The notes under the pieces were generated by a model. It was not told where the DNA came from and ran no database searches. It was given only the letters and a program-made list of their open reading frames with translations. Below, piece by piece: positions 14,311-15,299 of a DNA stretch of 64,000 nucleotides (position 1 is the first letter of the stretch; each line of letters begins with the position of its first letter). Source of the stretch: Crocinitomicaceae bacterium (GTDB taxonomy: Bacteria > Bacteroidota > Bacteroidia > Flavobacteriales_D > Crocinitomicaceae); NCBI GenBank assembly GCA_029254025.1, contig JAQWYK010000039.1, positions 1-64,000 on the forward strand, read 5' to 3'. Position numbers and translations under genes: made by a program.

Positions 14311-14344
14311 TAATTGTGCCGTTTTTATTAAGCTACTCAATTCA

Positions 14345-14373
14345 GAAACGCGCTCCTAGGGGCGCGTTTTTTT
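14345..14373 (+). terminator. Terminator of nrdBA
   Basis: AACGCGC (14347-14353) pairs with GCGCGTT (14362-14368) around an eight-base loop, followed by a T run to 14373. It lies 37 bases after the nrdA stop. Confidence 0.85.
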
Positions 14374-14384
14374 GTTCTATGCCT

Positions 14385-15122
14385 CTAGACAGAAGCAAGG
14401 TGTTCCTCCATTTCCGGAACAGCTGCTAGCAATTGGTCAAACGACTCAATGACAAAATACTTCTCCTGTATCTTTGTATTATCAAAGTCAGTATTCATGA
14501 TTTCCTTCACATCAAACGGCAAACGTATTGGCACATCTCCTAAACTAAACTGGGTCTCTCCAATAGAAGAAAGAATACCTGCCCCATAAATCTTTAGGCG
14601 GTCAGCACCTTGTATCAATCCGAATTCTATTGTAAACCAGTATACGCGACCTAGCATTTCAATATGTTTCGGACTGTTTTCATAGTTCATCCCTATTACC
14701 CCAATACGGTGAAAAAAGTCACAAAATGTTTTGTTGGTTAACAATGGCATATGCCCAAAAGCGTCATGGAACATATCCGGCTCAGATAAGTAGTCCAGTT
14801 CCTCCATAGAACGCAGCCAGGCGGATGATGGGAATTTTCGTTCAGATAGCATTTCAAAGAAATTACGCTGATCAATTATTCCTGGAACCACAACAATCTC
14901 CCATCCAGTTAGCTCTTTTAGCCGCTGATTCACTATTCTGAAATCAGGAATTGATCCTGCAGAAAACCCAATTTTATCAAGGCCCTCCAAATAATTTTTG
15001 TCCGCAACTCCTTGCAGTTGCTTCAGCTGCCTTTCAAACAAAATTGTCCATACTTTTCTATCCTCAGGAGTATAGCGGTTATACTCCTGACGCAGTCCAT
15101 CAATTAATGCATATGTTTTCAT
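14385..15122 (-). CDS. phhA: Phenylalanine 4-monooxygenase
   Basis: 245 residues from the ATG at 15122; a TTG two codons earlier is possible. It hydroxylates phenylalanine to tyrosine with oxygen and a tetrahydropterin. The iron ligands H119 and H124 ('DMFHDAFGHMPLL') and E166 ('WFTIEFGL') are all present. It is the compact bacterial catalytic-domain form, without the N-terminal ACT domain of animal enzymes. Its 5' leader is unusual: an intrinsic terminator ends 10 bases before the ATG, leaving no room for another promoter, so expression probably depends on readthrough. Confidence 0.95.
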   Translation of the reverse strand: MKTYALIDGLRQEYNRYTPEDRKVWTILFERQLKQLQGVADKNYLEGLDKIGFSAGSIPDFRIVNQRLKELTGWEIVVVPGIIDQRNFFEMLSERKFPSSAWLRSMEELDYLSEPDMFHDAFGHMPLLTNKTFCDFFHRIGVIGMNYENSPKHIEMLGRVYWFTIEFGLIQGADRLKIYGAGILSSIGETQFSLGDVPIRLPFDVKEIMNTDFDNTKIQEKYFVIESFDQLLAAVPEMEEHLASV

Positions 15123-15132
15123 ATTCAAGCAT

Positions 15133-15161
15133 AAAAAAAGCCCGACTTTACAAGCCGGGCC
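15133..15161 (-). terminator. Intrinsic terminator in the phhA 5' leader
   Basis: On the minus strand GCCCGGCTT (15160-15152) pairs with AAGTCGGGC (15148-15140) around a three-base loop with one C/A mismatch, followed directly by seven T (15139-15133). The phhA ATG is at 15122, only 10 bases further. There is no minus-strand gene upstream for it to end, so it is a leader attenuator or the end of a small RNA. Confidence 0.75.
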
Positions 15162-15187
15162 TATGATTATTAATTCTATTTAAAGCA

Positions 15188-15223
15188 TTAGAAATCAACA
15201 CAGCATACCGACTCTCCTTTCAT
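15188..15223 (-). CDS. Possible 11-codon leader peptide upstream of phhA
   Basis: ATG at 15223 to TAA at 15190-15188 encodes MKGESVCCVDF: two adjacent cysteines, and a single phenylalanine as the last codon. It lies between a good promoter and the terminator. Upstream bases are T-rich rather than A-rich, so translation efficiency is uncertain. Codons 4-6 contain AGTCGG, the same six bases as the 3' arm of the terminator, so this segment can pair with the terminator's 5' arm instead. This may be a regulatory peptide or chance; it is too short for homology to decide. Confidence 0.35.
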   Translation of the reverse strand: MKGESVCCVDF

Positions 15224-15267
15224 AGAAGAATAATAAAGCCAATATGATTTTACGCGTCGCACAATGT

Positions 15268-15299
15268 CAAAAGTAATAGAAACGGATTAAAGCGCAAAA
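15268..15299 (-). promoter_or_regulatory. Promoter of the phhA leader transcript
   Basis: TTTTG (15299-15295), a 19-base spacer, then TACTTTTG (15275-15268) on the minus strand: a full match to the Bacteroidota consensus. Predicted transcription start is about 15263, giving a leader of about 140 bases before phhA, or a transcript of about 130 bases if it stops at the terminator. Confidence 0.6.

Follow-up and report, generated by a model that had tools for sequence, protein, structure and literature searches.

A predicted tyrosine-codon transcription attenuator ahead of phhA in Crocinitomicaceae and other Bacteroidota

On the minus strand of the analysed window, the whole 64-kb stretch of DNA, lies phhA (14385-15122, ATG at 15122), the putatively regulated gene, whose 245-residue product is identified as phenylalanine 4-monooxygenase by NCBIfam (NF008877 and TIGR01267, above cut-off) and Pfam (PF00351) profile matches. 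Phenylalanine hydroxylase converts phenylalanine to tyrosine. A strong terminator hairpin at 14344-14371 separates phhA from the converging gene for the ribonucleotide reductase large subunit. Upstream of phhA, and likewise on the minus strand, we find a promoter, a short open reading frame and an intrinsic terminator, and a scan for the combination of an exact -7 box, a short ORF and a terminator recovers only this one such unit in the window.

The promoter, placed at 15299-15268 by the first-pass annotation, is confirmed by direct reading as TTTG-N19-TACTTTTG of the Bacteroidota type (15268-15298), with the -33 TTTG at 15298-15295, a 19-nt spacer and the -7 element TACTTTTG at 15275-15268; TAnnTTTG is moreover conserved before the leader in relatives. 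A sigma-70 scan called TTGACA/CATATT, overlapping the leader ORF, which in our view is this promoter with its boxes set at the wrong positions, and TTTG-N19-TAnnTTTG is preferred. Because the flavobacterial TAnnTTTG box sits at -12 to -5 according to PMC9723704, the promoter predicts +1 at 15263.

The leader ORF (15188-15262), delineated by translation and by homologous leaders, opens with GTG at 15262, one base past the predicted +1, and extends over 24 codons (peptide MRRVKSYWLYYSSMKGESVCCVDF) to a TAA stop at 15190-15188. An 11-codon mini-ORF at 15223-15188 had previously been taken as the unit, which turns out to be the in-frame tail of this longer frame: the ATG at 15223 lies inside the frame and is replaced by ACG in a 93%-identical sister (L037/L082), and homologous leaders begin just after the promoter. 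The sister's own leader has its ATG immediately behind the promoter and encodes MQHINSYWLYYSSTKEQSVCCVVF. A GTG start is usually weaker than ATG, a point that speaks against the window leader operating as a tyrosine attenuator.

In the relatives, the start codon most often follows TAnnTTTG by 4 nt (18/41 leaders), and by 4 or 5 nt in 25/41, compared with 5 nt in the window; a 4-nt gap would set the AUG exactly at the predicted +1. The start codon is hence predicted to coincide with the 5′ end of the transcript or to lie no more than a few nt from it, which would make the message effectively leaderless. In Flavobacterium psychrophilum, only 5.5% of mRNAs are leaderless, as given in PMC9723704. 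Within the genome studied here, TAnnTTTG-N4-ATG occurs 99 times versus 39 times for the reversed pattern (approximately 2.5-fold), which suggests that initiation at +1 is frequent in this genome, and several of these sites read into full-length genes; no second clear amino-acid leader was detected among the loci of this type that were read.

The terminator (15133-15162), recovered by scan and fold, consists of the stem AGGCCCGGCTT-gta-AAGTCGGGCTT (15162-15138) and a seven-T run (15139-15133). As proposed earlier, it ends 10 nt ahead of the phhA ATG, and its fold is well beyond chance, at -16.4 kcal/mol with a z of -3.6 and 3 of 200 shuffles as good. Together with the ORF it yields the classical layout of four regions, with the Tyr codons as region 1, the ORF tail as region 2 and the terminator arms as regions 3 and 4. 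Region 1, CATATTGGCT (15237-15246), pairs with region 2, AGTCGGTATG (15204-15213), in 10/10 bases, and region 2 can alternatively engage region 3, CATAGGCCCGGCT (15153-15165), as an antiterminator, region 3 being at the same time the partner of region 4 in the terminator. In the relevant window segments each of the three pairings is the minimum-energy fold, with -17.1 kcal/mol for 1:2 (fold of 15262-15196), -16.8 kcal/mol for 2:3 (fold of 15217-15150) and the above value for 3:4. The pairing of AGTCGG with CCGGCT of the terminator 5′ arm, which the first-pass annotation had pointed out, is apparent on reading and is lengthened by TATG:CATA.

The codons that would be sensed specify Tyr-Trp-Leu-Tyr-Tyr (15230-15244, with Tyr at 15244, 15235 and 15232), as recognized from the Tyr cluster in the leaders of relatives. 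Viewed in isolation the window cluster is modest, three Tyr among five codons with a Trp adjoining, and this argues against the tyrosine-attenuator interpretation. To place it in a broader context, phhA loci were gathered from the family, the order and the class as well as from GTDB contigs, resulting in 177 distinct upstream regions, and scanned for ATG-initiated ORFs of 10-45 codons located 2-11 nt after an exact TAnnTTTG, where Tyr-clustered denotes at least three Tyr within six residues. Of 47 promoter-led short ORFs upstream of phhA, 43 are Tyr-clustered, with Asn as the next most frequent clustered residue (4/47). As a control, 1.54 Mb of other strand-bases scanned in the same way gave 67 ORFs with three Tyr clusters, all of which are duplicate phhA loci, leaving no other Tyr-clustered promoter-led ORF in this material. 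Judging from the family labels of the collected loci, at least ten families have Tyr leaders ahead of phhA, with a run of Tyr codons exemplified by MNKQMHISTYYYQFLNPGTE. Conversely, the candidate signals suggested earlier, Phe and Cys or thiols, find no backing, as the terminal Phe codon and both Cys codons lack conservation beyond the genus; what is conserved is the Tyr cluster, situated in the N-terminal half that the shorter ORF had missed.

Could the Trp codon rather be the sensor, reporting on tryptophan or general aromatic supply? Tyr-Trp is common to the nearest relatives (the window, L082-L085, L003 and L170) and the Trp codon is found within region 1. However, most leaders lack Trp while all keep Tyr (1.3% versus 19.6% of leader residues), and the product of PhhA is Tyr, not Trp, and we therefore judge Trp sensing to be improbable.

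A wider scan, in which a terminator was additionally required and no particular residue demanded, identified 68 units, comprising 48 Tyr-clustered leaders, 16 with a mixture of His and Tyr in Algoriphagus and relatives, and four with fewer Tyr or His. In Algoriphagus and its relatives (L173, L041, L026, L022, L008 and L166), the mixed peptide upstream of phhA is of the MNPTPRTFVHHSYYHLR type and is positioned 4 nt past the promoter box, with a region 2, GGAATAGG, just past the stop codon that pairs with CCTATTCC of the terminator. About 110 of the 177 phhA upstream regions are without such a unit in a strict scan, which weighs against the tyrosine-attenuator interpretation. The unit is also absent from the most distant phhA homologues (31-43% identity; L147-L163, from another family of the order), which may form a separate subfamily. 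A search with the pattern TTTG-ATG-TAYTAYTAY over 100 genomes came out close to background and offers no evidence on other genes.

The alternative pairings were assessed in 41 non-redundant leaders, where both exceed dinucleotide shuffles, 2:3 with a mean z of -1.48 (p 1e-10) and 1:2 with a mean z of -1.80 (p 2e-8), shared ancestry meaning that these p values overstate the independence of the leaders. The spacing is similarly constrained: the first base of region 2 falls 10-16 nt past the last clustered Tyr codon in 32/41 leaders, versus 16% of shuffles, and the leader stop is separated from the terminator by 25 nt in the window, with a median of 25 nt in relatives. Six motif-anchored leaders further reveal covariation of regions 1, 2 and 3, which read GGCT/AGTC/GGCT in this genus and GGT/ACC/GGT in relatives; both helices, 1:2 and 2:3, contain double-sided changes, and sliding the partner by 1-3 nt abolishes the pairing. 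The first-pass annotation had made its idea of attenuation hinge on conservation of the hairpins in relatives; the hairpins are conserved and the idea survived. Against the tyrosine-attenuator interpretation, the pairing is significant alone (p <= 0.05) in just 18 of 50 leaders, and related leaders are non-independent.

These data also bear on whether the terminator instead ends a free-standing small RNA, or just trims the 5′ RNA, with phhA expressed by constitutive partial read-through and the ORF being incidental. Constitutive partial termination would likewise give a short RNA from this promoter, yet conservation specifically upstream of phhA extends to the Tyr ORF, its location at the promoter, the 2:3 pairing and the fixed spacing, and Rfam small-RNA models score sub-threshold only, making this scenario very improbable. 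Even less credence is given to a ligand-binding riboswitch or a protein-binding leader for Phe, a pterin or thiols, with the ORF left untranslated. The region does lie between promoter and terminator, and the ligand had been left open by the first-pass annotation, but no Rfam family matches the phhA leader at gathering score. Furthermore, the reading frame is conserved with synonymous variation, both Tyr codons being in use (128 TAT and 25 TAC), and the short pairings differ in sequence between lineages, without a conserved aptamer core.

With a matching promoter, an ORF enriched in Tyr codons, a terminator, mutually exclusive pairings, conserved spacing and covariation all present at the sequence level, we consider it highly probable that the leader controls phhA by ribosome-mediated transcription attenuation of the trp/phe type, with Tyr codons as those sensed. 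The original suggestion of attenuation at phhA thus holds in its core, the antiterminator formed by the ORF tail being strongly supported across Bacteroidota, whereas the ORF start was wrong and the Phe, Cys or thiol signals are unsupported. The trp and phe attenuators serve as the model from which ribosome stalling, the way the response runs, and Tyr as signal in place of Trp are deduced. On this model, transcription would begin about 1 nt ahead of the leader's first codon, and RNA polymerase would be followed by a ribosome translating the 24-codon leader. When charged tRNA-Tyr is scarce, the ribosome would stall at the Tyr codons and cover region 1, leaving region 2 free to pair with region 3, so that no terminator forms, phhA is transcribed and Phe is converted to Tyr. 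When Tyr is plentiful, the ribosome would instead reach the stop codon and mask region 2, permitting 3:4 to form and terminate transcription before phhA. Without translation, 1:2 would form, and termination is expected to follow too.

The gene content of the family is informative for this logic. Among 150 family genomes, phhA is present in 40 (E <= 1e-40), prephenate dehydratase in 22 and prephenate dehydrogenase, over cut-off, in three. phhA and prephenate dehydratase tend to co-occur (12/40 versus 10/110; Fisher p 0.003, relatedness ignored), and 11 of the 12 genomes with both lack a prephenate dehydrogenase over cut-off; therefore tyrosine would have to come from phenylalanine. Neither of the two prephenate enzymes reaches cut-off in the genome studied here (99.9% complete), which would need imported phenylalanine for its tyrosine. 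Switching phhA on when tyrosine is short would be sensible in this setting. Most family genomes likewise show neither enzyme over cut-off and, from their gene content, seem incapable of producing Phe or Tyr out of prephenate. A search for homogentisate dioxygenase gave weak sub-cut-off matches in nearly all genomes; these are uninformative as to whether PhhA is anabolic or catabolic, and a catabolic role is compatible with the gene content.

In animals, phenylalanine hydroxylase supplies tyrosine. If the tyrosine attenuator is true, the leader tells the direction in which PhhA works in these bacteria, namely supply of tyrosine when short, rather than mainly degradation of phenylalanine, a role that agrees with the genomes without prephenate dehydrogenase. 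The many leaders with a start codon at the predicted 5′ end would also represent a simple system for transcription-translation coupling without a Shine-Dalgarno site. More speculatively, and with considerable doubt on our part, there may be a widespread Bacteroidota attenuator class that reads tRNA-Tyr charging via an effectively leaderless peptide mRNA, most commonly with the AUG at +1, and places phhA as a tyrosine-supply enzyme under tyrosine control, including a His/Tyr version of the MNPTPRTFVHHSYYHLR type in Cyclobacteriaceae that reads two amino acids or a property common to tRNA-Tyr and tRNA-His.

Attenuation by leader peptides has been described for several amino acids, but to our knowledge no such system is built on tyrosine codons. 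A literature search covering the main texts of openly accessible papers turned up neither a tyrosine-codon attenuator nor a case of attenuation at phhA. At relaxed thresholds, Phe_leader (RF01859, 21.4 of 55 bits) and Trp_leader (RF00513, 22 of 41 bits) appear below the gathering cut-off among many chance matches, Bacteroid-trp (RF01692) matches neither at gathering score nor at E <= 10 for the region, and there is no T-box match in Rfam at the phhA leader. T-boxes bind tRNA directly and need no leader peptide. In this respect tyrosine T-boxes, named as RNA control of tyrosine genes in a comparative study from 2005 (PMC1262725), are unlike the phhA leader, although both would respond to tRNA-Tyr charging. 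Closer in phylogeny are the listed Bacteroid-trp motif (RF01692; PMC2864571) and the leader-peptide attenuators of amino-acid operons reported for F. psychrophilum in PMC9723704, the main text of which names no phhA or tyrosine case; they are from the same phylum and share with the phhA leader the predicted attenuation of amino-acid genes. The classical ribosome-mediated attenuators of Proteobacteria (Trp_leader RF00513, Phe_leader RF01859 and Thr_leader RF00506) resemble it in the leader peptide, where the sensed codon occurs in a run, in the ORF tail as region 2, in the exclusive 1:2, 2:3 and 3:4 helices and in the terminator ahead of the first gene. They differ in that the phhA leader has Tyr codons instead of Trp, Phe or Thr, targets phenylalanine hydroxylase, and is predicted to begin its ORF at, or close to, the 5′ end of the transcript after TAnnTTTG, with no Shine-Dalgarno site. 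Aggregated, the predicted mechanism is of a known kind, and what would be new is the tyrosine signal, the phhA target and the near-leaderless start.
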